A stretch of 64,000 nucleotides of DNA from Thermofilum uzonense. GTDB taxonomy: Archaea; Thermoproteota; Thermoprotei; Thermofilales; Thermofilaceae. The translations under genes were made by a program, and so were the position numbers. Below the pieces are notes generated by a model. The model was given only the letters and a program-made list of their open reading frames with translations, was not told the origin of the DNA and did no database searches. The stretch lies in assembly GCF_000993805.1 (NCBI RefSeq), contig NZ_CP009961.1, positions 1,326,453-1,390,452 on the forward strand, given 5' to 3'. Below, one piece after another: positions 4,543 to 60,921 of the stretch (positions within the stretch are counted from its first letter, which is position 1; each line of letters begins with the position of its first letter).

Positions 4543-4716
4543 CAGTGTTGATAATTTAGTAATAAGGGTAAAATATTTTTCTAGGCTATAGACCGCGAGG
4601 AGCATAATAATTTTCACTACAAACTCAGAGCACTTTTCTATGAGGCCCCAGGCAGACCGAAGCCATTCCCACCCTCTATAATCTCGGGTAGACCCCTGGT
4701 ATGTCTTCTCCGCCTC

Positions 4717-4985
4717 CTATTCCTCGAGGAGGATTTCAATCCTGCTTCGGAGTTCTTCTAGCTCTCTGAGCATCGCGTCCATGCTGTTGAGCGTCTTCCT
4801 GTATTCTGGGAGGATGCCCGCGTAGATTCTTAGAGGGGCTATGCGTGTGCGTCGAATGTTTACCTCCTCGACCGCCTCCGTCAGGGCGTACCACGCCCTC
4901 CCCGCGTGGTCAACCTGCCAGGCCTGCATAGCCCTGGACTCCCCCGGGTGTAGGTTGAGGCCACCGGCAAGGGACAACGCCCGGC
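4717..4985 (-). pseudogene. 3' part of an unknown helical protein gene carried by relic A
   Basis: The conserved part reads HAGRAWYALTEAVEEVNI, then RIYAGILPEYRKTLNS and ends in MLRELEELRSRIEILLEE, a likely coiled coil. Close relatives occur at 20637-20847 and, shorter, at 28575-28735; differences fall largely in third codon positions, so the family was once translated. The open frame extends further upstream, but there it is antisense to the TnpB fragment and is not a natural N-terminus. The protein family and function are unknown to me; a partner of the transposon is a guess. Confidence 0.6.
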
Positions 4986-4998
4986 TGTAAGCCTCCAA

Positions 4999-5157
4999 GG
5001 CCTCTACAAGTGCCCCCGGTGCGGCCTCGAGATCAACGCGGACATAAACGCATGCTTGAACATTGCCAGGAAGGCAGGATACACCCCGCCAACACCAAGC
5101 AAGATCGAGACCTACATCCCAACACACCAAGGCGTCGCAGCCGCCACCGAGAAGTAA
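4999..5157 (+). pseudogene. TnpB (IS200/IS605-type) C-terminal fragment
   Basis: The fragment starts at GLYKCPRCGLEINADINA and continues CLNIARKAGY to a stop at 5155-5157. This is the second zinc-finger CxxC plus the RuvC-III Asp-containing tail of TnpB. The first CxxC, the RuvC-I and -II motifs and the whole N-terminus are missing, so it cannot be an active nuclease. In intact IS605-family elements this stretch and the following right end encode the guide (omega) RNA. Confidence 0.8.
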
Positions 5158-10245: not shown

Positions 10246-11541
10246 GTGGGTAAGGCTAGGGTGACTGTTTTGTCGGTGGCGACGTATAAACAAAGGTATG
10301 CTTACGGTGAGGACTACGGTACAAGCCAGTTCAAGTTCGGTCCCATTGGAGAAAAACCGATTGTTATAGAGAACCGTGGGCTCTTCCTAGGCGAATCCAG
10401 GACACTATTAAAAATTTATGGAATCGAGAAGGAAGTCGTCGTAGGTCCCGACGTCGTAAAGTATCTTGGAAGCATAGAGGATGTCTCACGCCACCTTGTC
10501 TACCCGATGCGCGACGGGCTAATAGACAAGAATGATGGACGCTCTTGGAGAATTATAGAGGAGCTCACGAGGTATGGCTTTCTAGTTTCAAGACCCCAGA
10601 CACGCGACTTCGACGGCTTTTATGTGACAGCCGCGCTCAGCGCGATTGCGCCGGACTACATGTATGAACGACTATTCGAGATACATGCAAAGATCGATAA
10701 GGAGGAGCGCAGCGTAAAAGCTGTAACTGTAATCCCTCAGCCCCTTGCGGTAGCGATCGCAGAGAAGTCTGTCACATGTGTTGTTGTTGAGAGTGGACAC
10801 GGGAATACTCAAATCACGCCGATATCAGCCTACCCTATTCGAAACGCCATCGTGGCTCTTAACCGTGGCGGAGCCGAGGCCGATGCCATAGCTGCGGAGA
10901 TATTGAAGGATCTAGGCTTCGGCGACAGGGTTCGTGAAGAAAAATTTGTTCGATTGTTTAAGGAGGCGGTCGGCCTCGTGCCCAGAAACCTTGACGCGGC
11001 TATAAAGGCTGCCCGGCAGAACCCCGAGAGATTTGCTGTGGCCTTCAAGATACCCGGGACAACTATTGAGGTAAACCTTGAGAGGAATGGCTGGATGAGA
11101 TTTCTAATTGGAGAGGTTATCTTCAACCCAGAACACGAGGTCTTTGAAAGCTACTATAAGAGGGGGATGCCCAGGCCAAGGGACACTGTGATGGGAGAAT
11201 TCGTGGTGCGTGGGACACTCCCATTAGTGAATGCGATACAAGAGGCTTTAAGCAGGGTGTCCATAGAGCTTCTCCCCAGGCTGTACAATGACATCATACT
11301 CAGTGGGGGTAATTTCTCATGGAGGGTGCCTAAAGGGCTGGAAGATGTAGCTGTTGACAGTGCTGAGAAAATCAGGCTTGGGCTTGCAGAGCTAGGGATA
11401 GACTCAAGGGTTCACATCGTAGCTGACCCGCTGTACTCGGTATGGAAGGGTGCCATAGTTTACAGCATAGCGCTCCCCGAGGACGTTGAGTGGGACTGGA
11501 GGAGTCGTGAGGGGTGGTATAAGCGTGGGGTTCACTACTAA
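10246..11541 (+). CDS. crenactin, actin-like cytoskeletal ATPase
   Basis: 431 residues, the length of Pyrobaculum crenactin. Actin-fold motifs are visible: CVVVESGHGNTQITPI (phosphate 2 loop), YPIRNAIVALNRGGAEAD, ILSGGNFSW (adenosine motif) and the C-terminal PLYSVWKGAIVYS. Crenactin forms double-stranded actin-like filaments. A GTG start is used. The cluster downstream holds arcadin-2 and the Rad50-like arcadin-4, as in the described arcade cluster. Family assignment is firm; cellular role (shape or segregation) is from the literature. Confidence 0.95.
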   Translation: MGKARVTVLSVATYKQRYAYGEDYGTSQFKFGPIGEKPIVIENRGLFLGESRTLLKIYGIEKEVVVGPDVVKYLGSIEDVSRHLVYPMRDGLIDKNDGRSWRIIEELTRYGFLVSRPQTRDFDGFYVTAALSAIAPDYMYERLFEIHAKIDKEERSVKAVTVIPQPLAVAIAEKSVTCVVVESGHGNTQITPISAYPIRNAIVALNRGGAEADAIAAEILKDLGFGDRVREEKFVRLFKEAVGLVPRNLDAAIKAARQNPERFAVAFKIPGTTIEVNLERNGWMRFLIGEVIFNPEHEVFESYYKRGMPRPRDTVMGEFVVRGTLPLVNAIQEALSRVSIELLPRLYNDIILSGGNFSWRVPKGLEDVAVDSAEKIRLGLAELGIDSRVHIVADPLYSVWKGAIVYSIALPEDVEWDWRSREGWYKRGVHY

Positions 11542-11597: not shown

Positions 11598-12224
11598 ATG
11601 GGGGTTGAGTCGAAAGAGGCTACTCTTAGCCGTGAAGACTTGATGTATGTTGATTATATTAAAAAGTTCATAGTAGATGTGAAGAGGGGTAGAGTGGACA
11701 GGGTTTCTGCACGTGACAATACTATCGAGATAATTGGCGTAGACTCGACGGGGGCTCGCCTCGCCGTACGTCTGATATCTTCTAGAATTCCGATAAGTTA
11801 CGTAAACACCGAGGTAACACATGAAGCTCATGAAGCAGAGGAGATTGACGCAGACTACGTTTATCTCGCGATACCCTCCAAGAAGCTCATATACATAGCG
11901 AAACGCACACGTGAAATTCTCAAGGAGAAAGGCGTTGGGCTTATAGAGGTCTATGCTCATGGAGACACTGTCGAAGTAATGTCTTCAAGCTTGAGAATCC
12001 AGAAGCCTGTTCAACCTAAAAGCCCCGTCGTTGAAAGGATCATACAGCCGAGACTCTCAGAGGAGGTGCGGTTACCTGCTAATCCGAGCTCAGAGCGTCC
12101 AGAGATGCCTTCAGAGAACATAGCCAGGCCTTCTACGGTTGATTCTGAGGAGAAGATACCGGATTTCGTCAAGGACAATCCGTGGCTGAGTGTTTTGAGT
12201 AGGCGTAGAGCAGGCGGTGGTTGA
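11598..12224 (+). CDS. arcadin-2, crenactin-binding protein
   Basis: 208 residues: a folded N-terminal domain (about 1-135), a proline-rich linker and a short conserved tail, PDFVKDNPWLSVL at residues 188-200 followed by SRRR. In Pyrobaculum calidifontis the C-terminal peptide of arcadin-2 (about residues 187-203) binds crenactin in its hydrophobic groove and disassembles filaments. The position, length and tail here fit that description well. The identical tail core appears in a zinc-finger protein at 55811-56182, the most notable link in the window. Confidence 0.85.
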   Translation: MGVESKEATLSREDLMYVDYIKKFIVDVKRGRVDRVSARDNTIEIIGVDSTGARLAVRLISSRIPISYVNTEVTHEAHEAEEIDADYVYLAIPSKKLIYIAKRTREILKEKGVGLIEVYAHGDTVEVMSSSLRIQKPVQPKSPVVERIIQPRLSEEVRLPANPSSERPEMPSENIARPSTVDSEEKIPDFVKDNPWLSVLSRRRAGGG

Positions 12225-12228
12225 AGCA

Positions 12229-12432
12229 ATGTCTGTCAGGCATATGGGTAAGGGATTAGAGGAGAGCATTCGAGAGGAGTTAAAGGAATTGCTTGGCGAC
12301 GATCAGGAGGCTTTAAGCATCGCTTTAAGCTTGCTTGAAAGATATGTTCAGGAGGGGTCAAGAGGCGTACGAAGACGAATAGCCGAGCTTTTAGAGGCTG
12401 GGAACATTGAAAGCGAAGCTACGGAGGCTTGA
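12229..12432 (+). CDS. small helical protein between arcadin-2 and arcadin-4
   Basis: 67 residues from ATG 12229 (71 from an upstream GTG that overlaps the arcadin-2 stop). It is helical and acidic (LEESIREELKELLGDDQEAL, then SIALSLLERYV). It overlaps the 5' end of the arcadin-4 gene by 26 bp, so it is clearly part of the operon. It may be arcadin-3 by position; I recognise no domain. Confidence 0.65.
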   Translation: MSVRHMGKGLEESIREELKELLGDDQEALSIALSLLERYVQEGSRGVRRRIAELLEAGNIESEATEA

Positions 12433-14809
12433 AGTCAACTGTTTCAGAGGATTTAGAAGTCAAAGGATGTTTGAATTTCCCGACGGTGTAACCGTTGTCG
12501 TAGGTCCCGTGGGATCCGGGAAGTCTAGCATACTTTCCGCAATTCAGTTCGCATTATATGGTTTCGACTTTAACACCGCAATGAATCTCTATCAGCGCGA
12601 GAGCCTTATAAACGTTGAATGTGAGAGAGCCGAGGTTCAGCTAACCCTTGAGGTTCCAGGGGATGGATTGTACCAGGTAGGTAGGAGCCTTGATAGAAGC
12701 GGGGGCAGGCTACGCGAAACAGTATTTCTAAAAACACCCCAAGGTGATGTTGTAAACGGATCAGTGGAAGTTGAAGCAATAATCGAGGAGCTTCTAGGGC
12801 TAGACTTTCAGGAGTTTATACGTTCCGTTTCGCTTGGATATGTTCTCGTGCATATGTTGGCCTATGGGCGTCAGGCCTCAAGGAGTAGGGCCCTCGACAT
12901 TCTTCTAGGGATTAGATCCATAAGGGCTTTCTACGAGTCCCTCAATCCCAGAAGGATTAAGAAAGAAGTTGATGAGCTACGCAGAAATCTTGAAGACCTG
13001 AGAAGAGAGTACAGTGAGACAGAGGAAAATTACTCTCGTGTCAAAACAAGGAAACGAGAGCTTGAATCAAAGAAAAGTGAGCTTCAAAAACGGCTATCCG
13101 ACATTCAGGGTCAGCTTAAACAACTTGAGGAGCCTGTAAGAAACTATTTAGACCTAAGCCGTAAAATCGAGGACAATAAAAACTACGCTAACAGGCTCAG
13201 AGAGAAAATCAAACACTCACCCTCTGAACTAGACCCCTACAGGATAATGGAAGAAGTGGAGTATGTCAAACGTGAGTTGCGGGACGTTTTCGAGAAGCTC
13301 GTGGTTTCACAGGATTACTTCAATACTCTCGAAAAAGTACAGGTTTCGAGTGAAAATCTCCACCAAACAGTTGCATTACTGGAAAAGCTGCTGGACGATG
13401 CTTGGAGGAGGTATGACAGGGTCTGGGAGGCTTTCCAGAGCTCGGTTAACGAGCTCGAGCAGAGGAGAGGCGAGCTGAGAGGATTGGAAAAACTGCTTGT
13501 CGAGCTCGAGCCGATTATATCCGAGTACGAGGAGGCTGAGGAGAGGCTACAAGAGCTGGAAGCTAAGTATGGGACACAAGAAAAGCTGGAGAAAGAGTTT
13601 AAGAAAATTGAGGAGGAACTTCGCGAAAATATGAAAAAACTACAACAGCTGAAGAGCATCCAGCAGCTTAAACAGTCCCTGGCCGAGAGTGCCCTACGCC
13701 GGACTAGCGTAACCTGTCCAGTTTGTGGCTCCCAAATTGATTCCTCGATTATAGACGAGTTAAGGAGCGAGTTAAGCCAAATCGCAAAACAAGTACTAGA
13801 TTACGAGAAGAAAATACAGGAAAACGAGAAAAGGCTCAAAGAGCTACGCGCTCTACTTGAGGATATAAGAGGGCTAAAAGTCACACTTGTTAGCCGTGAG
13901 CCCGACTATGACAGGTATAGAGATTTTATTCAGAGGAAAGAGGATCTAGAAGAGGAGATAAGAGAGGACGAGTTAGTGATAAAAGGCAAAGAACACGAAT
14001 ATAGGAGTATCTCCGCCGTCCTGACGAGTTTAGATGAAAAGATAGGTGATCTAAAAAGAAAATTAAACGAGTATTCATTAAGCCTCGAGATTCTGAAGAC
14101 CGAGAAGGAAATTGCTGAGCTTGAAGAACAAAGGAAAGAGTTAGAACCCTACTTTACCCAGTACACGAAACTGAAAGAAGAGGAAAAACAGGCAACCGAC
14201 GCATTAACAAAAGTCGAGGCAGAGCTCAGCGCGCTGGAAGAATCTTACGTTGAACAGCACCTCGAAGAACTTAGCAGGGAAATCTCCGGACTCGAATCCA
14301 AGATATCAAACCTTGAAAACCTTTACGTCAAGCTAGAAAAAGTGAGAAACACTGTTAGACAAATTCTCGATAAGCAACGGCGCGAAAAGATTGAAGCTCT
14401 GAACAGGAGAATAAATGAAATTATAAGAAAAGTTTACCCATCGGAGAGTATCCGCTCCGTAGAGCTGGAAATAATTGAAAAATACACTAGAAAGGGGGCT
14501 CCACCGGCAAGCTACTATGACATATATGTGAATACAGGTAGTGGTAGATACAAGTTTAACGAGCTGTTAAGCGACGGTCAGAAAACAATAGTAATACTCT
14601 CAGTACTCCTCGCTATATACTCGCAGACCAGACACAAAGCTGGATTCATAATGCTAGACGAACCACTACCTAACGTTGACGATGAGATAAAGCTGGCTTT
14701 CCTTACAACCCTCGCCGAGAGTGAGGACATACCACAGGTCATAGTTACGACGCAGGCTGAAGAGCTGACAACCAAGGTATCAGGTATAAACATTATAAGG
14801 CTTAGATAG
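12407..14809 (+). CDS. arcadin-4, Rad50/SMC-like ATPase with zinc hook
   Basis: 800 residues. Walker A GPVGSGKSSILS lies near residue 33, followed by two long coiled-coil arms around a zinc-hook motif CPVC at 437-440. The C-terminal half has the ABC signature LSDGQKTIVILSVLLA and Walker B FIMLDEPLPNVDDE. It resembles Rad50 in architecture but lacks an adjacent Mre11 gene and has an altered D-loop. In crenactin clusters this gene is arcadin-4. The TTG start at 12407 gives MKAKLRRLEV, the standard first strand of Rad50-like proteins. Confidence 0.88.
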   Translation: MKAKLRRLEVNCFRGFRSQRMFEFPDGVTVVVGPVGSGKSSILSAIQFALYGFDFNTAMNLYQRESLINVECERAEVQLTLEVPGDGLYQVGRSLDRSGGRLRETVFLKTPQGDVVNGSVEVEAIIEELLGLDFQEFIRSVSLGYVLVHMLAYGRQASRSRALDILLGIRSIRAFYESLNPRRIKKEVDELRRNLEDLRREYSETEENYSRVKTRKRELESKKSELQKRLSDIQGQLKQLEEPVRNYLDLSRKIEDNKNYANRLREKIKHSPSELDPYRIMEEVEYVKRELRDVFEKLVVSQDYFNTLEKVQVSSENLHQTVALLEKLLDDAWRRYDRVWEAFQSSVNELEQRRGELRGLEKLLVELEPIISEYEEAEERLQELEAKYGTQEKLEKEFKKIEEELRENMKKLQQLKSIQQLKQSLAESALRRTSVTCPVCGSQIDSSIIDELRSELSQIAKQVLDYEKKIQENEKRLKELRALLEDIRGLKVTLVSREPDYDRYRDFIQRKEDLEEEIREDELVIKGKEHEYRSISAVLTSLDEKIGDLKRKLNEYSLSLEILKTEKEIAELEEQRKELEPYFTQYTKLKEEEKQATDALTKVEAELSALEESYVEQHLEELSREISGLESKISNLENLYVKLEKVRNTVRQILDKQRREKIEALNRRINEIIRKVYPSESIRSVELEIIEKYTRKGAPPASYYDIYVNTGSGRYKFNELLSDGQKTIVILSVLLAIYSQTRHKAGFIMLDEPLPNVDDEIKLAFLTTLAESEDIPQVIVTTQAEELTTKVSGINIIRLR

Positions 14810-47961: not shown

Positions 47962-48149
47962 GCCAGCCCCCTCCCCTAAACCCCCCTCAGCGCCCCCGTT
48001 TCGCCTCGGGCTACTCCGGTGGGCGCCCCTCGGGCCCTGCGGCCCACGGGGCCGGCGGGGCCCTCACAGGACCCTCCACCCCCTCACAAGGGGGTGCCAC
48101 CACTAAAGGTGGGAGTAGAGGGTAAAAAAAGAGGTTTAGGGGAGGGCTG
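47962..48149. repeat. 190-bp repeat with inverted ends, copy 2
   Basis: The same element as 44426-44615 in the same orientation. The hairpin corresponding to the first copy reads CCACC-ACTAAA-GGTGG (48097-48112): both partners of the third pair changed together (G-C to A-T). It begins 54 bp upstream of the HTH gene and ends 2 bp before the helicase stop at 48152, so it fills the gap between two operons. Confidence 0.7.
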
Positions 48150-48151
48150 AA

Positions 48152-49552
48152 CTAGGAATCTTGAATGTGGAGTACTGGCTCGAAGTATTTGGCGAACTTT
48201 TTGAAGCGGTAGTCGGCGAGAATGATCTCTGGGCTTGCCTCTGGGCTGCGCGTGGCCCTGCCTATAGCCTGGAGTGTTGCTGTAACCATGGGTATCCACC
48301 AGGCGTTGTCGGGGTCGATGCCCATCCGGTAGTAGTACTTTCGCAGGCGCTCCGTCACGTCGGGTGGAAGGAAGGGGGCCCCAACCATTACAACAGCGTC
48401 TGCCGGCAGGTCTACCCCCTCGCTGAAACGCCCGAAGACATTAAACATTGCCAGGCCGCGCCAGTCGTCCGGGGGCTTTTCGTCGAGAAAGTCTATTACG
48501 CTCACCAGTTTGACTATGATCCTGTCAGTCGCGAATGCCAGGATGCGTTTATGCCTCTTTTTCAGGCTTGAAAGCAGCTTCATGTACCCCCATATCGTCT
48601 CCTCCCCGTACTTAGTGGTCACGTCGCCGACCACGAGGGCCTTCCTCGGCTCTGAAGGCACCCGGATAACGGCGGCTTGAAAGAGGTCTTCGATGGGTTT
48701 AGGAATAGTAGCGCTAAGGTAGATGCGGGGGCCGATGCTGGGCCTCCAGGGAGGCAGGGCGACCATGACTTTACCCTCTTCCCTGTAGACGATTCCCCTA
48801 GAAGCGGCTTTGAGAAACCTTACCAGGGGTAGTAGTCTCCGGGCCATGAATGACCCCTTCGCGAATTCTTCCCTGTAAACGATGAGCGTCTCTTCTATGA
48901 CATCCAAGTCTATTGAGGCTACCCCCTTATTGATAATCCCTCTTATCTTCTCCCCCAGTTCCGGGTTCAGTGCGTCTAGGGCGTCTAGGGCCTCTCCTAA
49001 ACCCTTTATCTCAACAATGTTGGGCTTCAAGAGGTTATGTGCCTCGTCCACAACTACTGCTCTGTAGCTTCCAACTACTCTCCGCCTATAGTTCTGAACC
49101 ACTACGTCGGCGGCGGCGATGTAGAAGTCTTGTGCATAGTACCTGCAGAGATGGGAGGGTATCTCCTCCCAACTCGTATAGAAGAGGTCTGGAACCCCCT
49201 CTTTCAAGTTTTGGAAGAAGGGGCAGCGTGACCTGTTAATCAAGCAGTATTCTTCCGGGTCGTCCGTCTTCACGCTGCAGGACCTGGCCCTCCCGGCTGC
49301 GATGAAGGGCTTCAAGTCTAGCCTTAAGGCATCCCCGCTTATCCTACTTCCGAGCTCCAGGCTCCTCACCAGCCACAAGACAGGAAGCCTCCCAGAAGAT
49401 CTAAAAGCAGACAATACGGCAAGGGTTTTTCCAAACCCTGTGGGCGCTACCAGTAATGCATCACCCTCGACACCAGCTAAAGCCTCAGCAGCCTCAACCT
49501 GTCCGGGCCTAGGCTTAAGCCCGGCCTTCTCGAATACCTCTAGGACACGCAA
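48152..49552 (-). CDS. XPD-like Fe-S DNA helicase
   Basis: 466 residues. Walker A LLVAPTGFGKTLAVLSA near residue 34, DEAH box AVVVDEAHNLL and the C-terminal motif VI LQAIGRATRSPEA are clear. Between motifs I and II four cysteines (RSCSVKTDDPEEYC, SRCPFF and HLCRYY) fit the Fe-S cluster of XPD/Rad3 helicases. It is shorter than chromosomal XPD. A 5'-to-3' unwinding role on the element is inferred. The N-terminus overlaps the coiled-coil gene by 13 bp. Confidence 0.85.
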   Translation of the reverse strand: MRVLEVFEKAGLKPRPGQVEAAEALAGVEGDALLVAPTGFGKTLAVLSAFRSSGRLPVLWLVRSLELGSRISGDALRLDLKPFIAAGRARSCSVKTDDPEEYCLINRSRCPFFQNLKEGVPDLFYTSWEEIPSHLCRYYAQDFYIAAADVVVQNYRRRVVGSYRAVVVDEAHNLLKPNIVEIKGLGEALDALDALNPELGEKIRGIINKGVASIDLDVIEETLIVYREEFAKGSFMARRLLPLVRFLKAASRGIVYREEGKVMVALPPWRPSIGPRIYLSATIPKPIEDLFQAAVIRVPSEPRKALVVGDVTTKYGEETIWGYMKLLSSLKKRHKRILAFATDRIIVKLVSVIDFLDEKPPDDWRGLAMFNVFGRFSEGVDLPADAVVMVGAPFLPPDVTERLRKYYYRMGIDPDNAWWIPMVTATLQAIGRATRSPEASPEIILADYRFKKFAKYFEPVLHIQDS

Positions 49553-49794
49553 GATTTTGCCACCTCTCCGGAGAATAGTCTCAAGGCTCTGATGATCTTC
49601 TCGCGCTCTGCCAGAAGCTTCTCTTTCTCACGCTCTAGCCTTGCTATTTCACTGTTTATTCTGCTTAGCTCCCCGTCAATCTCGTTAAGCCTATTCGTTA
49701 TCCGTGCAGAGATGTTTTCCTCAACCCCGAGGCTCCGCAAAAACGCCTCAAGATTTCTTATGCCTTTGCCGAGAGACTCACTATTACCCCTCAT
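49540..49794 (-). CDS. coiled-coil protein
   Basis: 84 residues from ATG 49794 (MRGNSESLGKGIRNLEAFLR), which overlaps the stop of the upstream ATPase by an ATGA. The middle is a clear heptad coiled coil (LNEIDGELSRINSEIARLER, then EKEKLLAEREKII). The longer upstream start would lie inside the ATPase gene. Probably a partner or adaptor in the same complex as the helicase and ATPase. Confidence 0.7.
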   Translation of the reverse strand: MRGNSESLGKGIRNLEAFLRSLGVEENISARITNRLNEIDGELSRINSEIARLEREKEKLLAEREKIIRALRLFSGEVAKSCVS

Positions 49795-51999: not shown

Positions 52000-54141
52000 G
52001 TGATACCATATCTCCCAGGCCTAAGAGACTTAATCGTGCTTTTAGTTATAGTTGTACTAGCCCTGCTGGCACTAACCGTGAGCCCACAGCTCCCACTCTT
52101 AGCGCTTTCAATCCTTCTCGCCTACATAGTATATACCAGGAGGGAGTGGATTCTTGAGTTGCTCTACGGGGAGCGCGTCCTCCTCCTCCACCCAGCATTG
52201 GTTGAGTTTGTAGAGGTCAAGGGGCGGCGAGACCACGCTGTCATACGCCAGGCCAAGAAAACACTATACGCTGCCTCGCTACGCGTCAACGACTATGATC
52301 CTCCCCAAAACCTGGGGCGTGCTGCGGAGCGTTTCATCGCGTCGCTCCACAACCCATCAACCCGTGTCAGCATCGCTGCAAGGCTACAGGAGGGCGGCTA
52401 CTACTACTATGTGACAATGTATTCTGAGGACAAGCACGTGCTCCGCGAGGCAATAGCATCCACGCACAGGCAGCTCCTAGCGAACGGCGTCTACGTCCAG
52501 GCAGCCGACCCCGCTGAGTTCCTGCCGCACGAGTCCAGGCTCTTCGGGCTCTGCGCTCCACGCTTCACGCTCCTCGCGGCCGGGATACTAGTAGCCGTGG
52601 CGCTGACCCACGCGCCCCTTCTCGCACTCGCAGCGATACCCCTCCTGCCGCTCATACCCTTCGACCTCAAGGTCGCGAGGGGCGGCGAGACGGTTGTCGT
52701 CGAGCCTCTGGTCGAGCTCGAGTACCGTAGCACGCTCGCCGACGAGGCGGCAGCCGCCTCAGCGGTTCGAGTAGTTTCAACCCTGTCCATGACGGTGCCC
52801 GAGGGCGCGATGTTGCTCGCCTCGCTAGCCCCCGCGGACATAGCGCTGCTAGAGGCTCAAGCCAGGAGGGCCATGGAGGTACTCGACGCCGCGAGGGCCG
52901 GGGTGGGAAGACTAGCCCACGAGTTCAAGGCTATGAGGATATTCACTCTATGGCGTAGGCTGCAGGAGGGCGCCGCGCCGTTCCACGTCAGCCTCGCCTC
53001 CACACCGGATCTCGCCAGGGAGCTCATGAAGGCCGGTTTCACCCCGAAGCACCGGTCACGCATATCGGCGTTGAGAGTGCTTGGAGTCCTACCCTCGTAC
53101 CCCGACATATACATCAGCCACCAGCTCGCCCCGCTGAGCCCCTACGCCTTCCTTCGCCCCCGCACGAGGCGCACGCCCAAGGCAGTATACCTGGGCCACG
53201 GGCTTCGTAAGGACGAGGAGGTGTGGCTGGAGCTCGACCTCCTGGAGAACGTGCACGGGCTCATCGTGGGGCCCATGGGTAGCGGTAAGAGTACTACCGC
53301 GCGCACGCTGGCGCTCAGGGCGTTGAAGCATGGGTATACGCCTATCATAATCGACCCATCGGGGGAGTACAGGCTGTGGGCCAAAGCGGGGTTCGAGGTA
53401 GTCGACCTCTGGGACCGGCAGCTCGACATCTCGCGTGTCTCACCGGACGACCTCCGCCGCGCCTTCGATTATATTAGCCCGTTGACGGACTACGAGTTTC
53501 TAGTCTTGAAGAGGGCATTAGAGGCGGGGAAGAGTCTTTGGGAGCTGAACATGGGAAAGCTGGAGCTGATTAAGCCGTACTTCTCACGCGCTACGCTCAG
53601 GGTTGAAGACCTGCTAGACTCGGGTAAGCCGTTCATACTATGCCTAGGCTCCACGTCCAGCGGGAGGTACGTGCCAATCCCGGTGGAGTACCAGCGTTTC
53701 GCCGTCTCGGTCATGCTGGCTATGATGCGGGACCACGTCATCGCCAAGGGGGTTCAAGAGCCAAAGTGGCTGCTCATCGTCGACGAGGCCCACCTCTTCG
53801 CGAGGCCGCCCCACCGCGAGCGGGAGGCGGAGGTGGTAACGCTGGCGAGGATGCTGCGGAAGTTCGGCCTGGCAGTAATCCTCATTACGCATGACTGGCG
53901 GGACGTGGACGAGACGTACATAAGACACTGCGGCTGGAAGCTAGCGCTCTCGCACAGCTCTCCGGAGTACGTGCAGGACACGGCGTTCTACATGTCGTTG
54001 ACGCCTGCTGAGCTGACGTGGTTTCAGCGAGGCCTGAGGGGCAGGGCCGTCCTCAGGAGGGGCTTCGAGCCTCATAACGTCCTGCTGGAGATCGAGCCGG
54101 AGGAGTACGCGAAGCCCGAGGTATACTCGCAATTAGCATGA
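52000..54141 (+). CDS. membrane-anchored HerA/VirB4-type ATPase 3 (possible DNA-transfer motor)
   Basis: 713 residues from GTG. Two N-terminal membrane segments (LIVLLVIVVLALLALTVSP and LPLLALSILLAYIVY) and two more near residues 185-220 (LLAAGILVAVALTHAP, LLALAAIPLLPLIPF). The motor follows: Walker A LIVGPMGSGKSTTARTLALR near 423-442, IIIDPSGEYRLW, Walker B WLLIVDEAHLFARPP and VILITHDWRDVDE. This arrangement is like conjugative VirB4/TraG-type or Ced/Ted ATPases. With the pilus genes further on it supports a DNA-transfer system. Confidence 0.83.
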   Translation: MIPYLPGLRDLIVLLVIVVLALLALTVSPQLPLLALSILLAYIVYTRREWILELLYGERVLLLHPALVEFVEVKGRRDHAVIRQAKKTLYAASLRVNDYDPPQNLGRAAERFIASLHNPSTRVSIAARLQEGGYYYYVTMYSEDKHVLREAIASTHRQLLANGVYVQAADPAEFLPHESRLFGLCAPRFTLLAAGILVAVALTHAPLLALAAIPLLPLIPFDLKVARGGETVVVEPLVELEYRSTLADEAAAASAVRVVSTLSMTVPEGAMLLASLAPADIALLEAQARRAMEVLDAARAGVGRLAHEFKAMRIFTLWRRLQEGAAPFHVSLASTPDLARELMKAGFTPKHRSRISALRVLGVLPSYPDIYISHQLAPLSPYAFLRPRTRRTPKAVYLGHGLRKDEEVWLELDLLENVHGLIVGPMGSGKSTTARTLALRALKHGYTPIIIDPSGEYRLWAKAGFEVVDLWDRQLDISRVSPDDLRRAFDYISPLTDYEFLVLKRALEAGKSLWELNMGKLELIKPYFSRATLRVEDLLDSGKPFILCLGSTSSGRYVPIPVEYQRFAVSVMLAMMRDHVIAKGVQEPKWLLIVDEAHLFARPPHREREAEVVTLARMLRKFGLAVILITHDWRDVDETYIRHCGWKLALSHSSPEYVQDTAFYMSLTPAELTWFQRGLRGRAVLRRGFEPHNVLLEIEPEEYAKPEVYSQLA

Positions 54142-54182: not shown

Positions 54183-55148
54183 GTGGAAGACATATTGGAA
54201 AAGTTGAAAGGGCTCGGCCTGGGACCGACACTCATAGGAAAGCTAAAGGCACAGGGCCTCCTGAGTGAGAGTGGCATGCGTTTCATCATCGCGTCAACAC
54301 CAGATGAGTTGATCGAGCTCCTCGGTTTGTCCGGCTACGATGTCGCACAGCGGCTTCGTCAGGCCGCCAAGTCGGTCGTCGGCTTCGACAATCGCGCGGT
54401 GACGGCGGCGGAGCTCCTAGAGCTCGAGGAGGCGGGGCCACGGCTCACCACCGGAGTCAAGGCGCTGGACGAGCTGCTAGGCGGAGGCCTGCGGCCCGGG
54501 GACCTCTACGAGTTCGCCGGAGAGTTCGGCACCGGGAAGACCCAGCTCTGCCACCAGCTCAGTGTGATGGTTCAGCTGCCCGCGGAAAAGGGCGGCCTGC
54601 AGGGCAAGGCTGTCTACATCGACACGGAGGGGACCTTCAGTCCTCCGAGGGTACAAAAGATTGCGGAGAGGTTCAACATAGACGGCACAGAGGCGCTAAA
54701 GAGTATTACTGTTTATAGACCGCTAAACACGGGCGAGCTCGAGAGCTTCGTAAAGGGCCAGCTGAACAGCTACCTTGAAGCCGGTGCCAGGCTTGTCATA
54801 GTGGACTCTGTTATAGCGCTTTATAGAGCCCAGTACAGGGGTATCGAGTGGCTCGCGAGGCGCCAGCAGGCGATCAACTACCTGCTTGACTGGGTTAAGA
54901 GGTGGGCTAGGGTGTACGGCGCCGTCGCGGTCATCACCAACCAGGTCCTCACCCACCCGTTGCCCAGCGGTATCGCGTTGAAGATACCGGCGGGCGGCAA
55001 CATTATAGCCCATGCAAGTACGCACCGCTTCCTTTTGAAGAAAACGGGCGATGCATTCCTCCTCGAGGTCTTGGACAGCCCGCGCGTCGCCCGTGGCGCG
55101 AGTGTAGAGTTTAGAATCGAGGAAGACGGGCTCCACGATGCCAGGTAG
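54183..55148 (+). CDS. RadA/Rad51-family recombinase paralogue
   Basis: 321 residues. An N-terminal helix-hairpin-helix region (GLGPTLIGKLKAQGLLSESG) precedes the ATPase core: LTTGVKALDELLGGGLRPGD, Walker A GEFGTGKTQLCHQLSVMVQL, AVYIDTEGTFSPPRV, Walker B RLVIVDSVIALYRAQ and VITNQVLTHP. It is complete but has an altered L1/L2 region relative to typical RadA, so it is likely a mobile-element paralogue. An AT-rich TATA-like sequence (AAATTAAATT) near 54150 leads to a nearly leaderless GTG start. Confidence 0.85.
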   Translation: MEDILEKLKGLGLGPTLIGKLKAQGLLSESGMRFIIASTPDELIELLGLSGYDVAQRLRQAAKSVVGFDNRAVTAAELLELEEAGPRLTTGVKALDELLGGGLRPGDLYEFAGEFGTGKTQLCHQLSVMVQLPAEKGGLQGKAVYIDTEGTFSPPRVQKIAERFNIDGTEALKSITVYRPLNTGELESFVKGQLNSYLEAGARLVIVDSVIALYRAQYRGIEWLARRQQAINYLLDWVKRWARVYGAVAVITNQVLTHPLPSGIALKIPAGGNIIAHASTHRFLLKKTGDAFLLEVLDSPRVARGASVEFRIEEDGLHDAR

Positions 55149-55671
55149 CCTTCTAGACGCCCAGCTGAGGGCTACACTCGAAAGGTGGGAGAAAGCCCGG
55201 GCCGCGAAAGACGTATACTACGTCACCGAGGTCGCCTCCGGGTCCCGTGGCCAGGGCAGGGGCGTCTCCGAGGGTCGCAGAGTACACTCCAAGATATGGG
55301 GTCTAGACCCATTCGAGGTTTTGAATCATTCAAGGATATCGCTCCCCCTCCCAGTGGCTTGGAGGTTCCGGTTTGGCTGGCTTCTCGGTGTGGTTGACCA
55401 GGTTCTATTTGTAGACGGCTTGCCTGTAGAGGTTGCCGAGCTGAAGAGTTATGACGGCTTCAAGAGCTATGAGAAAGTACAAGCTTCACTCTACGGCCTC
55501 CTAGTTATGCTTAACTTTCAATACCGTCCAAGAGTCTCGATCATAGGCATGAACGAGAAGCTGGAGATAAACAACTGGGAGGAAATAGCGATAGAGGCTT
55601 TAGTCTCGTTTTGTAGAAAGCGTAATACGTCGCAATGCGCCGGCGTAATGCGCCGCAATGCGCTATCTTGA
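55138..55671 (+). CDS. Cas4/RecB-like PD-(D/E)xK nuclease without Fe-S cysteines
   Basis: 177 residues. The core reads GVVDQVLFVDGLPVEVAELK then SYEKVQASLYGLLV: Asp, E-x-K and Gln motifs of the RecB/Cas4 nuclease group. Four Cas4 cluster cysteines are absent. It overlaps the RadA paralogue by 11 bp, so they are cotranslated and may act together on DNA ends. The last 17 residues (from RKRNTSQCAGVMRRNALS) are encoded by the palindrome array, so the true C-terminus may have been extended by the repeats. Confidence 0.75.
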   Translation: MPGSLLDAQLRATLERWEKARAAKDVYYVTEVASGSRGQGRGVSEGRRVHSKIWGLDPFEVLNHSRISLPLPVAWRFRFGWLLGVVDQVLFVDGLPVEVAELKSYDGFKSYEKVQASLYGLLVMLNFQYRPRVSIIGMNEKLEINNWEEIAIEALVSFCRKRNTSQCAGVMRRNALS

Positions 55672-55776
55672 ATTCAAAATACTGCATTACGACGTATTAC
55701 GTCGCCGTAATGCGTCGCATTACGTTGTCTTGAGCGTAATACGTCGCATTGCGCGGGCGTAATGCGTCGCACTGCG
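55621..55776. repeat. array of six 19-bp palindromes in three pairs (candidate centromere/operator)
   Basis: Units start at 55621, 55644, 55683, 55706, 55735 and 55758. The best unit, CGTAATGCGTCGCATTACG at 55706-55724, is a perfect palindrome around its centre. Others vary at one to four positions; the third is in reverse. Within each pair the units are exactly 23 bp apart; each pair is followed by a short ATCTTGA-like spacer. ParB is encoded 1.5 kb away and the zinc-finger gene starts 34 bp later. It could be a partition site, replication iterons or an operator. Confidence 0.85.
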
Positions 55777-55810
55777 TCATCTTTAAATCAGTGCTAATTA
55801 TATTATCACT

Positions 55811-56182
55811 GTGAAGTGTCCGAAGTGCGGGAGCAATGAGGTGCAATGCAGTGGCTCCAAGTGCCGCTGCCTGGTGTGCGGCAACGAGTTCTACACCTGC
55901 AGCATATGCGGTGAAGCCTTCTCAACCGCACAACAGCTCGCAGCCCACATGAAGAAACACAGGAGGAATGATGACCCGAGTCTACGGGAGCTTGTTCTAG
56001 AGCTGGAAGAGCTTAGAAAAACGGTTGAAGAGTTGCGCCAGGCCGTCGAGAGGCTAGAGGCTGCCCTGCATGGACTGCAAAGACAGCCTCTCACCCCTCA
56101 CCCTGCGACTAACGAGGAATTGCCGGACTTCGTGAAGGACAATCCATGGCTGCAGGTCCTTCACAAGAAGAGGGACACGTAG
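55811..56182 (+). CDS. zinc-ribbon/C2H2 protein with coiled coil and an arcadin-2-like tail
   Basis: 123 residues from GTG. C3, C6, C20 and C23 form a zinc ribbon; C30, C33, H46 and H50 form a C2H2 finger (YTCSICGEAFSTAQQLAAHM). A coiled coil spans about 57-92. The last 20 residues hold PDFVKDNPWLQVL (105-117), differing from the host arcadin-2 tail at one position within 13. DNA binding by the fingers and protein docking by the tail are inferred. It is translationally coupled to the ATPase gene (TAGTG). Confidence 0.85.
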   Translation: MKCPKCGSNEVQCSGSKCRCLVCGNEFYTCSICGEAFSTAQQLAAHMKKHRRNDDPSLRELVLELEELRKTVEELRQAVERLEAALHGLQRQPLTPHPATNEELPDFVKDNPWLQVLHKKRDT

Positions 56183-56748
56183 TGGCGGTCAAGCTTATAG
56201 AGCAGTTGCTGGCCCCGCCTCAAAAGCTCCTCTTCCGTGAGGACAAGCTACGCGAGACTCTCGAGCTACTTAGAGGCGGGGAAAGCCTAGTCATCAGGGG
56301 TCCAGTAGGAGTCGGCAAGACAACCCTGGCATTAATGGCTGCAAAAGGCTTCAAGCAAACCTACATCAACTGCTTCCAGTGCAGGACTTACGACTGCATA
56401 CGTCGGCGTATAGCCCCGGGGCTAATCATACTGGACGACTATACCCTGGCTAAAAGGACGGCCCAGTTGGTGAGGCTAGTTAAAGAGCTCCCTTGGAAGC
56501 TCGTCGTAATTCACCCGCAGCTCCAAGCAGAGGAGCTCAAAGATCTACCAATAGTAGAGCTAAAGCCGTACACTCTACAAGAGCTAGAAGAAATACTGAG
56601 AGAAAGAGTAATACGTCTAAACTTACCTTTAAGCGACTATGATATACGCTTGGCAGCCGAGGAGGGTGTCCGCAGAGGGGGAAACGCGCGCATAGCCCTT
56701 CTTAAGCTTGCCGAGCTAGCAGGGCTAACAGCCTCCTGGCAAGCTTAG
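56182..56748 (+). CDS. small Orc1/Cdc6-like AAA ATPase
   Basis: 188 residues from the GTG that overlaps the preceding stop (TAGTG). Walker A VIRGPVGVGKTTLALMAAK near residues 37-55, Walker B GLIILDDYTLAKRT, and a lid helix region PYTLQELEEILRERVIRLNL then GGNARIALLKLAELAG, like the sensor 2 part of Cdc6. No C-terminal winged helix remains, so it is far shorter than Orc1/Cdc6. A loader or regulator partner of the zinc-finger protein is likely. Confidence 0.75.
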   Translation: MAVKLIEQLLAPPQKLLFREDKLRETLELLRGGESLVIRGPVGVGKTTLALMAAKGFKQTYINCFQCRTYDCIRRRIAPGLIILDDYTLAKRTAQLVRLVKELPWKLVVIHPQLQAEELKDLPIVELKPYTLQELEEILRERVIRLNLPLSDYDIRLAAEEGVRRGGNARIALLKLAELAGLTASWQA

Positions 56749-57216: not shown

Positions 57217-57312
57217 ATACTATTGATCATGCATTATAACTGATATGCATCATGGACGACTTTTAATTGACGTGTGCAAAACTTATTACGTTTATGCCTT
57301 TTTGTTTTCCCC

Positions 57313-58218
57313 GTGGAGCAGATTACTCTCATACCGTCAGATAAGCTGAAGCCCAGTATCGTTAATGTGAGGCAGCGCGTAGATCCCGAGCGGGTTCGCG
57401 CCCTCGCGGAGGATATCGCTGTTAGGGGGCTACTGCACCCCCTGGTTGTCAGAAGAGAGGACGACTATTATGGTGTTGTCAGCGGGAGGATGCGGCTCGA
57501 GGCGATCAAGCTCCTGCAGAGGGAGAAGCCCGAGGTTTTCGCGAAGCTCTTCGCCAACGGCGTCCCATGCCAGGTCAGGGAGCTCAGCGACCAGGAAGCC
57601 CTCGAGCTCAGCCTAGCCGAGAACCTCCGCCAAAACACCCTCACCCCAGAGGAAGTGGGCCTAGGCCTCGCACGGCTCCACGAGCTCGGGCTCAGCGAGG
57701 AGGAAATCTCCCTCCGCTTAATGCTCGCCCTTGACCAAGTAAGGCGTGCACTGAGGCTGTATAGGAAGGTGCAGCATATCCAGGAGCGCGTCCATGGGAG
57801 CAGGCCAGGCAGGCCTCCGAGTTCGGAGAGGAGGAGGGGCGTGAGCCGCACGGGTATCGCTGTCGTCGCATCGGTTCTCGACAGGCTGTCGGCACGGGGC
57901 GAGATAAAGCCCCAGGAGAGGGATGCCCTGCTCGACTACGTGGCAAGGAGGGCGGGAGAGCTCGGCTTATCGACCTCCGAGCTGGAGATCGTTGCGAAGC
58001 GAGTATGGACTAACCCCAGCCTCGCCGAGCCTTCAAGGCTCGAGCGCGTGATGAGGGAGGTCGCGCGGCTCGAAATGGTGGAGCGTGTAGTCGCGCTGCG
58101 CCGCGACCTTGTGGAGCGTGTGGAGGACTACGCGAGGTCCCGCAGTGTAACGTTCGACGAGGCTGTGAACGAGCTCCTTGAAGAGGGGCTGGCAAAGAGA
58201 GCCAAGATTGGCTCGTAG
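57313..58218 (+). CDS. parB: ParB-family partition protein
   Basis: 301 residues from GTG 57313. The ParB N-terminal domain is clear: NVRQRVDPERVRALAEDIAV, VVSGRMRLEAIKLL and LSLAENLRQNTLTPEEVGLG, followed by a helix-turn-helix (LSEEEISLRLMLALDQVRRA). The C-terminal region ends in a ribbon-helix-helix-like segment. ParB binds centromere DNA; the palindrome array at 55621-55776 is the nearest candidate. The partner ParA would be at 60191-60859. Confidence 0.88.
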   Translation: MEQITLIPSDKLKPSIVNVRQRVDPERVRALAEDIAVRGLLHPLVVRREDDYYGVVSGRMRLEAIKLLQREKPEVFAKLFANGVPCQVRELSDQEALELSLAENLRQNTLTPEEVGLGLARLHELGLSEEEISLRLMLALDQVRRALRLYRKVQHIQERVHGSRPGRPPSSERRRGVSRTGIAVVASVLDRLSARGEIKPQERDALLDYVARRAGELGLSTSELEIVAKRVWTNPSLAEPSRLERVMREVARLEMVERVVALRRDLVERVEDYARSRSVTFDEAVNELLEEGLAKRAKIGS

Positions 58219-58259: not shown

Positions 58260-58478
58260 CTAGGTGAGCTCCTCAGGGAGAACAGGCTCCTCCTCCAGGC
58301 GTACGGAGAAAAGCCCTCCCGCTCTCCTCCTTTTTCTCGCCCTCTTCTCGGTTTCAACAGTGGCTTTTACGGTAGCTCTCGCTAGCCTCCTTGCCTCTTC
58401 AATCTCTCTCTTCAATGGATCCTCCTCGTCCATGAGCCCAAGCCTCTTCAACAACTCCTCTAGTACTCTAAAAGTCAC
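58260..58478 (-). CDS. small basic helical protein downstream of the secretion ATPase
   Basis: 72 residues from GTG 58478, overlapping the ATPase gene end by 11 bp. It is helical with a basic middle (RARKRRRAGGLF) and ends in EEEPVLPEELT. It is the last gene of the ParA-coiled-coil-ATPase operon and convergent with parB. No family recognised; possibly a pilus accessory factor. Confidence 0.6.
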   Translation of the reverse strand: MTFRVLEELLKRLGLMDEEDPLKREIEEARRLARATVKATVETEKRARKRRRAGGLFSVRLEEEPVLPEELT

Positions 58479-59769
58479 CTGTATCCACCCCGAGAGGTAT
58501 AGCCTCAAACTTCTGGAATATGTAATCCTTCCCTTTGGCGTCCAAGGCCTCCTTCACCCTACTGTATACCGTCTCAGCCTCATTTGATTCTCCAAGCCCC
58601 AGCTGGAGCTCGGGCGGCAGGAGGCTCAGGAACTCCTCCTCGGGCAGGTATCTCCCCTTGAAGATTGGCGTGAAGCCCTCCTCTGTCAGCACGTAGACAG
58701 CTTGTACGCCCCGCTGAATCCCCCCCTCGCTGCTTATAGTCTTGCCGCATACCGCCCATACCCTCACCGCGTCCAATACGCTCGCCTTCAGGCCTGAAGC
58801 CTGAATAAGCGTGTCTAGCCTCTTGACCGCGTCCACCAGCCCGGTGCTGTGCGCCGTAGTCAAGACGGGGATCCCGCTGCCCGCAGCTTCAAACCAGGAG
58901 GGCACCTCCTCACCCCTCAGCTCGCCCACCACGAGCAGGTCGGGCCTGTCGTACCTGCGCGTTGCACGTATGTTGTCCGTCACCGTCCTGCCGCCGAAGC
59001 TGAAGTACTTGACGATGCTGGGGCCGTAGACCCGCGTCGCCACCTCCGGCTCCTCCTCGACGATAGATACCCTTAAAGAGGGCCACAGCTTCACGATTGT
59101 GCTGAGGACCCCGATGAGCGCGGTGGTCTTGCCGCTGCCCGGCGGGCCCACGAAGACTATGCTGGACGGCGACGCCGCGAGGGTCACAAGGCGCGCCAGC
59201 AGCAGGGGCTCCGCTTTGAAGGGCTCCGTCTTGACTACTATCCTCGCTGCGCTGATCTGCCAGCCCCCTGATAATTGTGGCAGAGAGATGTTTACCCTCC
59301 AGCCGTGAAAGTCGCCCGAGTCCTGTGGGTTCTTCTCGCTAAGCGGTATCCCGCTCACGATGGCTATACGCTGTGCTAAGGCCTCGACGTTCAACCCCTG
59401 GTGCTCAACAACATATCGTCTGCCACCTATCCCGGCCGTGACGTGTACTTCGCCGTTATCCTCCCTGATAAACACCTCTTGGGTGCCCGGGTAGTCGATG
59501 AGCGGCTGCAAGGGCCCCCAGGGCCCCTCAACCGTAGGAAATACTCTTACAACACCATTCCCAAATACAATATAGCCACTCTTAACCCTCAACGCCTCTC
59601 CCTGGATGGGCTCGTGTATCTGTGGCTCCCCGCTGCTAAGCTTGCCCCTGGGGGGTCTGAGAACCTGAAGGCCCAGCTTGAACCTTGAGGGCTTCTTCTC
59701 AGTAGGCTGACTTTCCGGCCCTCCTCGTGGCTCACGCTTTTTAGATATTTTTATCCTGGTCAGCGGCAT
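58468..59769 (-). CDS. TadA/GspE-type secretion ATPase (type IV pilus assembly)
   Basis: 433 residues. VFVGPPGSGKTTALIGVLST is Walker A (about residue 200), VSIVEEEPEVATRV the Asp box, PDLLVVGELRGEEVPSWFEA Walker B and VLTTAHSTGLVDAVKRLD the His box. This is the hexameric motor that drives archaeal type IV pili and archaella. The N-terminal 90 residues are charged and probably bind the coiled-coil protein or membrane. Pilin-like genes lie 1.2 kb away on the other strand. Confidence 0.9.
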   Translation of the reverse strand: MPLTRIKISKKREPRGGPESQPTEKKPSRFKLGLQVLRPPRGKLSSGEPQIHEPIQGEALRVKSGYIVFGNGVVRVFPTVEGPWGPLQPLIDYPGTQEVFIREDNGEVHVTAGIGGRRYVVEHQGLNVEALAQRIAIVSGIPLSEKNPQDSGDFHGWRVNISLPQLSGGWQISAARIVVKTEPFKAEPLLLARLVTLAASPSSIVFVGPPGSGKTTALIGVLSTIVKLWPSLRVSIVEEEPEVATRVYGPSIVKYFSFGGRTVTDNIRATRRYDRPDLLVVGELRGEEVPSWFEAAGSGIPVLTTAHSTGLVDAVKRLDTLIQASGLKASVLDAVRVWAVCGKTISSEGGIQRGVQAVYVLTEEGFTPIFKGRYLPEEEFLSLLPPELQLGLGESNEAETVYSRVKEALDAKGKDYIFQKFEAIPLGVDTGDF

Positions 59770-60190: not shown

Positions 60191-60859
60191 TTATTTATTC
60201 TTTATGAGCCTTGCAAGCGATGCTATTGCCTTGTCAAAGCTCGGGGAGGTGTAGTTTAAGACGTTGACTGTGGCTGGGCTTAGCCTCGTTATCGCGGGCT
60301 CGTAGGGCACGAGCACGAAACCATAGCCGTGCCTCCTCGCGAAACTCTCAACTATCCTCCTATACGTGTCAACGGCTACGCCTGGCAGCGGCCTAGGCAC
60401 GTTTAGAGCCACTACCACCCGTTTCTCGCCGAAGCGCTTCAAGCCCGTGAGTATCGAGGGCTGTGTCGGCTCTACTACGCTTAGAATCGTGTCTGCAATG
60501 TAGAAAAGCGGCAAGTACCTCCTCATGGTTTCGATATCCGTGAGGGCGGGCAAATCAATTATGATTATGTCGAATTCGTTAAGTCCACGCACAAACTCGG
60601 CTACTCGACCAGGGTCTATTGCACCGCGGTTCACAGCCATGAACAGTGGCACTCCGTCGAAAAGCTCAACTCTCCTGAGGCTTCCGGCTGGATCCTGGCT
60701 AAGGTAGGGTGGCGGGGCATCCCCTAGCAAGTAGGAGGTTGCGCCGCCCTCGCTACTAGCATCTACTAGCAGGCTCGGCGACAATACTATTGATAAAGCT
60801 ATGGCTAAAGTCGTCTTGCCGACTCCTCCCTTGCTTCCGCTGAAGGTTACAACAATCAT
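60191..60859 (-). CDS. ParA/MinD-family ATPase (partition or TadZ-like)
   Basis: 222 residues from ATG 60859 (MIVVTFSGSKGGVGKTTLAI). The deviant Walker A KGGVGKTT, the switch region IIIIDLPALTDIETM and VVEPTQPSI are typical of ParA/MinD. Being the first gene of the secretion ATPase operon it resembles TadZ/CpaE, the ParA-like protein that positions Tad pili. It may instead work with ParB, encoded convergently 2 kb away. Confidence 0.87.
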   Translation of the reverse strand: MIVVTFSGSKGGVGKTTLAIALSIVLSPSLLVDASSEGGATSYLLGDAPPPYLSQDPAGSLRRVELFDGVPLFMAVNRGAIDPGRVAEFVRGLNEFDIIIIDLPALTDIETMRRYLPLFYIADTILSVVEPTQPSILTGLKRFGEKRVVVALNVPRPLPGVAVDTYRRIVESFARRHGYGFVLVPYEPAITRLSPATVNVLNYTSPSFDKAIASLARLIKNK

Positions 60860-60921
60860 ATCTCTGTTCACAAATATGGTGCTACGGGTATTAATTTTTT
60901 GCCTCCGCACAGGCGTCTTGA

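Follow-up and report, generated by a model that had tools for sequence, protein, structure and literature searches.

Why should a small zinc-finger protein encoded in a mobile element end in the same peptide as arcadin-2, a protein of the crenactin (arcade) cluster of its host? The question is raised by a stretch of 64,000 nucleotides of the Thermofilum uzonense genome (the window), in which both open reading frames are present, and the comparison involves the following features:

10246–11541, + strand: host crenactin (Pfam Actin; E=1.6e-116 to Pyrobaculum calidifontis crenactin, 4cj7/5ly3)
11598–12224, + strand: arcadin-2, with the tail PDFVKDNPWLSVLSRRRAGGG at 12159–12221; adjoins crenactin, with a tail homologous to the P. 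calidifontis peptide that was crystallised
12407–14809, + strand: arcadin-4, SMC/Rad50-like, assigned by position and size
55811–56182, + strand: zinc-finger/coiled-coil/tail protein of 123 amino acids, proposed DNA–crenactin adaptor (C2H2 finger at residues 28–50; AlphaFold2 model)
56123–56179, + strand: tail of the crenactin-binding type, PDFVKDNPWLQVLHKKRDT, residues 105–123 of the zinc-finger protein, assigned by tail homology

The arcadin-2 gene lies directly 3' of the crenactin gene, and its 208-residue product ends in KIPDFVKDNPWLSVLSRRRAGGG, the zinc-finger protein in ELPDFVKDNPWLQVLHKKRDT. Over PDFVKDNPWLxVL, 12 of the 13 tail residues are identical, and outside the tail no similarity is evident; the recount agrees with the initial annotation, which had reported near-identical tails with one difference over 13 on otherwise unrelated proteins. 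The chance of a 12/13 match at any C-terminus in the genome is about 2e-10 under assumed amino-acid frequencies. Compared with the arcadin-2 family, the zinc-finger protein has, at the sequence level, the C-terminal helix of the crenactin-binding type, and lacks the N-terminal core; its gene is located about 44 kb from the arcade cluster, in the mobile element. Codons differ at 5 of the 12 shared residues, which argues against the tail being a recent copy or duplication of arcadin-2 DNA, and nothing points to its capture from arcadin-2. An origin of the tail by chance or as the product of an overlapping frame was ruled out by the pattern statistics, and the downstream ATPase gene likely starts after the tail (GTG at 56182).

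The partner of such a tail has been characterised in P. calidifontis. The last 17 residues (R187–R203) of its 203-residue arcadin-2 were crystallised in the hydrophobic groove of crenactin, to which the peptide binds with a Kd of 31 nM and in which its tryptophan is the likely key contact (PMC5173319). In vitro the peptide disassembles crenactin filaments and sequesters monomers; the C-terminus is the only part of arcadin-2 that interacts with crenactin, and the authors liken the arcadin-2:crenactin complex to ParR on ParM (PMC5173319). The genome that is taken as P. calidifontis (G018) encodes an arcadin-2 of 203 residues with the C-terminus RGGIGENEWVKILRSKR, homologous to the tails described here; shared with the window tails is the order [DE]-N-x-W-hydrophobic-x-hydrophobic-L, followed by basic residues, and the tail consensus reads LPSF[LV][RK]DNPW[IVL]E[VI]L[RK]SR. 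Binding of the zinc-finger tail to crenactin is predicted from this homology.

A search of 398 Thermoproteota genomes with the pattern F-[VILMF]-x-D-N-P-W yielded 103 matches, compared with 4 for the reversed pattern. Every match was fetched, translated and judged by reading, and a C-terminal tail was scored as genuine. Crenactin was detected in 128 of the genomes, at least 70 of which carry genuine tails (the strict pattern misses many true ones, such as the Pyrobaculum type), as opposed to 1 of the 270 genomes without detected crenactin. Counted by genus, tails occur in 30 of 48 with crenactin and in 0 of 115 others (Fisher p=6e-41 by genome and 1.4e-20 by genus, with relatedness above the genus level uncorrected). 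The other matches in crenactin-free genomes, read singly, were internal, outside a plausible gene or without the rest of the tail. The initial annotation had proposed docking of the protein onto crenactin, and the wide spread of the tail in crenactin-free lineages that would argue against docking was not observed. The exceptions comprise G275, a 90% complete MAG of the same family that has a tail and no detected crenactin, and a 5.9-kb contig of G232 on which a tail was seen with a looser pattern. The third is G323, an 84% MAG in which arcadin-4 and its neighbours are on one contig with an HTH-tail gene (G323:C29; L317:1–2300) and in which neither crenactin nor arcadin-2 was found. These exceptions may result from incomplete assemblies or foreign contigs.

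The same data bear on the idea that the tail is a general peptide motif whose partner is something else, such as a different arcade protein, and whose occurrence together with crenactin would be incidental. A partner has been measured only for the P. calidifontis version, which reads NEW, and G323 retains arcade genes and an HTH tail where crenactin was not found, both of which would fit this idea. All tails are, however, homologous to that of arcadin-2, whose sole crenactin-interacting part is the C-terminus (PMC5173319), and the co-occurrence of tail and crenactin is strong, so that a general motif is regarded as improbable.

The motif is also found in other arrangements. Arcadin-2 of T. pendens (G105; L142:1235–1984) carries the tail in two tandem copies, PSFARDNPWLRIL ... 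PSFARDNPWLDFL. Genomes of the Thermoproteaceae type contain a conserved open reading frame of 19–25 codons with little beyond the motif, for example MDPRRNVWVKIIREKAKPIEA (L197 at G018:C1:251951, L200, L208, L212, L214, L220, L221 and L225), preceded in the copies that were read by an AT-rich, TATA-like stretch upstream of the ATG; this motif-only frame is a candidate thymosin-like micro-protein for crenactin.

At the DNA level, the pattern has three matches in the whole source genome, all three at protein C-termini, and the reversed pattern has none. Beside the zinc-finger protein and arcadin-2, the match is carried by a winged-helix protein of 125 amino acids (C1:912707–913081) that ends in VPTFVADNPWLKVLAQRGRERVGL, and a fourth tail, LPSFVQNNPWIEVLQKK, belongs to an HTH protein (C1:1200722–1201408) that ends in LPSFVQNNPWIEVLQKKTKSTSSLR. 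The four known tail proteins of this genome are accordingly arcadin-2 and three proteins with DNA-binding folds; its one crenactin match lies inside the arcade cluster.

The association with DNA binding extends to other genomes. An unbiased scan showed that 25 of 28 tail proteins other than arcadin-2 (two frame-shifted copies are included in the 25) are DNA-binding, with HTH, winged-helix, C2H2 or RHH folds, and that the remaining three have no recognised family; its carriers comprise the HTH family, two C2H2 proteins, two RHH-like proteins and one winged-helix protein. Seeded, and hence biased, searches add the C2H2 tail proteins L290, L291, L296, L298 and L299, the RHH proteins L294 and L303, the AbrB-like L301 and one plasmid protein, where the RHH and AbrB assignments are weak, with Pfam scores below cut-off. 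A profile of the HTH family detects the HTH-coil-tail gene in nearly all genomes of the window's class that encode crenactin, among them P. calidifontis, and in none of the four genomes sampled from f9 and f11, the families of this class without crenactin; N and W are invariant in all 44 distinct tails of the family. The winged-helix tail family is conserved in Thermofilaceae with NPW invariant, and its model adopts a winged-helix fold with best structural matches to ArsR/MarR proteins and a lower one to AspA of pNOB8, at E~2e-3, a level common to many winged helices. The plasmid gene is located on the circular pTPEN01 of T. pendens (NC_008696.1, 8952–9350; WP_011751374.1) and is the sole match among 72,556 plasmids; the N-terminal fold of its product has no Pfam match and gives only an impression of being Alba-like. 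Phage records contained no tail match, and pattern scans of IMG/VR for virus-borne tails returned only internal, frame-less or unrelated matches. The tail is thus a module on many DNA-binding proteins of hosts and elements, and its earlier designation as the tail of arcadin-2 is too narrow.

This distribution argues against the view that the element encodes an anti-crenactin factor, a mimic of arcadin-2 that disassembles or blocks host crenactin and binds DNA for self-regulation only. Near identity to the tail of the filament-disassembling arcadin-2 is in line with such a factor. Yet the same tail occurs on conserved host chromosomal DNA-binding proteins, and a poison would need neither a coiled coil nor the unique repeat array described below, which makes this role highly improbable.

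The zinc-finger protein itself matches zf-C2H2 with 9e-07, above the curated Pfam cut-off, and has no Pfam match to ParB. Its AlphaFold2 model, built from 5 sequences with a mean pLDDT of 81, consists of the finger (residues 1–53), a long helix (58–90), a low-confidence linker (91–105) and a tail helix (112–122); Foldseek returned weak matches only, the best to C2H2 fingers. A search of genome_contigs for relatives over the full length gave only a tail match to the arcadin-2 of a Thermofilum MAG and a coiled-coil match. The closest homologue, 35–38% identical, is encoded in another genus, on contig G183:C37.

The surrounding element differs in GC content from its neighbourhood (55–66% vs about 50%) and extends from about 42.8 kb in the window to about 15 kb beyond it. 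The following features surround the zinc-finger gene:

52000–54141, + strand: HerA/VirB4-like ATPase (Pfam scan)
54183–55148, + strand: RadA/Rad51-family recombinase (Pfam Rad51, 8e-62), of a family that adjoins tail genes in several other loci
55138–55671, + strand: presumed RecB/Cas4-like nuclease, assigned by eye, with no Pfam match
55615–55790, no strand: centromere-like repeat array, with three ~58-nt repeats and six ~19-bp imperfect palindromes (CGTAATRCGYCGCAWTRCG)
56146–56748, + strand: AAA-type ATPase gene with the probable start GTG 56182, conserved beside the G183 homologue
57274–58218, + strand: ParB-like protein (ParB_N, 2.6e-10)
58468–59769, − strand: T2SSE (pilus/secretion) ATPase (Pfam scan)
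60191–60910, − strand: ParA-like ATPase (Pfam scan)

Its designation as a mobile element is well supported by the GC content, by the VirB4/HerA-, T2SSE-, ParA-, ParB- and RadA-like genes, by a duplicated helicase gene and by a related element on the G183:C37 contig. Pfam scans of the element's open reading frames revealed no actin domain. The AAA-type ATPase gene is probably translationally coupled to the zinc-finger gene. The helicase gene (window 48149–49571) has a 99% identical second copy at G000:C1:1198.8–1200.2 kb, preceded by ParA/T2SSE-like genes and closely followed by the HTH-tail gene. Within the nuclease gene, 239 bp (window 55345–55583) are 99.6% identical to a copy behind host RadA, whereas the RadA genes of element and host are only 74% identical, which indicates a recent exchange.

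The repeat array is positioned directly upstream of the zinc-finger gene, just before its promoter. Each ~58-nt repeat holds two ~19-bp near-palindromes; the units start at 55621, 55644, 55683, 55706, 55735 and 55758 and are 23 bp apart within pairs. Repetitiveness reaches z=11.2 over dinucleotide shuffles, and all 11 matches of the palindrome pattern in the genome fall inside the array. The G183:C37 homologue also has an upstream array (z=10.2), which shares CGTAATACG; the 8 palindrome-pattern matches of that genome all lie within 4691–5068 of one contig. There, the same ATPase homologue follows the gene and homologues of the element's later genes precede it. Because the arrays are alike in both genera while the proteins have diverged, the array is read as the cognate, predicted binding site of the zinc-finger protein. 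The presence of a unique array upstream of the gene, conserved with the homologue in another genus, strengthens the proposal that element DNA docks on crenactin. No significant upstream array was found at the HTH, wHTH, RHH and other tail genes, and that of pTPEN01 is weak (z=3.6).

The position of the array also fits a crenactin-sensing or crenactin-titrating transcription factor, whose tail would bind the monomer and couple expression to the crenactin pool, with the array as an autoregulatory operator. RPEL motifs couple MRTF to the actin pool in a comparable manner. The sequestration of monomers by the arcadin-2 peptide (PMC5173319) and the HTH, wHTH, RHH and AbrB folds, which are typical of regulators, are consistent with such a role. 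Six palindromes over 176 bp, on the other hand, exceed a usual operator, and the repeated occurrence on elements and a plasmid of their own tail protein, on unrelated folds, is more easily explained by a requirement of the element DNA than by a common regulon. A transcription factor of this type is considered unlikely, although together with a coupling to recombination it is the main rival of the adaptor reading.

The latter is suggested by gene neighbourhoods. Tail genes of three folds, wHTH, C2H2 and AbrB, adjoin RadA-family genes: the order wHTH-tail, p199, RadA is conserved in Thermofilaceae (L318:8708–11087), C2H2-tail genes stand beside RadA-family genes in the window and in L305, L349, L350 and L351, and an AbrB-tail gene does so in L344. 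This linkage of many tail genes is not predicted by a pure partition model. The tail proteins might instead tether RadA-processed DNA to crenactin and so join DNA ends or incoming element DNA. Against this, within the sequence examined no RadA gene adjoins the tail genes of the HTH and RHH types, that of pTPEN01 or the homologue with the related array (L290); on the contigs of the RHH type the neighbours are HerA-like or wHTH genes. The coupling is judged quite unlikely. The RHH-tail genes are on short contigs (L340:3444–3797, L342 and L343:7646–7990), beside a gene for a wHTH protein of ~360 amino acids and, in L340, also near HerA-like and NYN-domain genes; these contigs may represent another kind of element equipped with a tail adaptor.

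The best explanation, to which we assign a probability of about 60%, is that the zinc-finger protein is a ParR-like adaptor through which a centromere-like site would fasten the element's DNA to the crenactin of the host; both the binding and the partition are inferred from sequence. The C-terminal tail would be a portable crenactin-binding helix. A coiled coil, followed by a flexible linker, would connect it to a C2H2 finger specific for the palindromic array that precedes the zinc-finger gene. With several dimers on the palindromes, a cluster of tails would be available to occupy the hydrophobic groove of host crenactin. Element DNA attached in this way could be moved or kept in place by crenactin filaments or their ends, in the manner of ParR and ParM. 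The element would supply only the centromere and the adaptor, and the host the actin. Since the P. calidifontis tail depolymerises crenactin in vitro, the adaptor would be confined to monomers or to the ends of filaments. ParA and ParB of the element may contribute as well, and they could also do the partitioning themselves, which counts against the adaptor reading, as does the restriction of arrays to the zinc-finger pair and, weakly, pTPEN01. The host chromosome would probably be tied to the actin filament through similar proteins, namely the HTH-coil-tail protein, which is conserved, and the RadA-linked winged-helix-tail protein of Thermofilaceae.

The adaptor resembles ParMRC (type II plasmid partition, with ParM as actin, ParR as adaptor and parC iterons) in its predicted combination of DNA binding with a C-terminal peptide of a type known to bind the hydrophobic groove of an actin, and in the repeats that immediately precede the adaptor gene. 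It differs in that no actin is encoded with the adaptor in the element, host crenactin being assumed, and in that the adaptor is a C2H2 finger, RHH-like folds being found only in other tail proteins. With arcadin-2 it shares the tail after a variable linker; it differs in its unrelated N-terminal part, in having a DNA-binding domain and in its location outside the arcade cluster. In the AlpA/AlpC system of prophage CGP3 of Corynebacterium, a DNA-binding adapter likewise links element DNA to an actin-like filament (PMC5539076), there of an actin encoded by the prophage itself. The AspA-ParB-ParA system of Sulfolobus pNOB8 provides archaeal centromere binding and an AspA fold resembled by the winged-helix tail family, but is ParA-based and has no actin. 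Salactin of Halobacterium is an archaeal actin linked to DNA distribution, although it belongs to a different actin family and a text search of its report returned no occurrence of the term adaptor (PMC10746226). Unlike in ParABS (type I partition), the zinc-finger protein is not of the ParB type, and ParA and ParB are encoded elsewhere in the element.

A targeted search of openly available papers, with subscription papers mostly outside its scope, retrieved no report linking the arcadin-2 tail to DNA-binding proteins. The principle of a DNA-to-actin adaptor is already known from ParMRC and AlpAC; new, if true, would be the use of a host actin, the archaeal setting and the attachment of a single tail to several DNA-binding folds. 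By structure, few prokaryotic proteins are closer to eukaryotic actin than crenactin. Its role has been given in a review as shape or division (PMC7613921), and its part in division has been called unclear (PMC10936438). DNA-binding proteins that end in a crenactin ligand peptide provide a concrete hypothesis, with the proteins, the tryptophan and the DNA site named, in which host actin moves or anchors DNA. A wider reading, held tentatively and at somewhat less than even odds, is that crenactin is the DNA-positioning or DNA-segregating actin of Thermoprotei, with the HTH-coil-tail protein as its link to the chromosome, and that plasmids and integrated elements hitch-hike through centromere-adaptor modules of their own that carry the same tail on different DNA-binding folds. 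If true, the adaptor would bring the principle of ParR into the archaea, would be a case of elements that exploit a host actin, and would make crenactin-binding proteins easier to identify by sequence.
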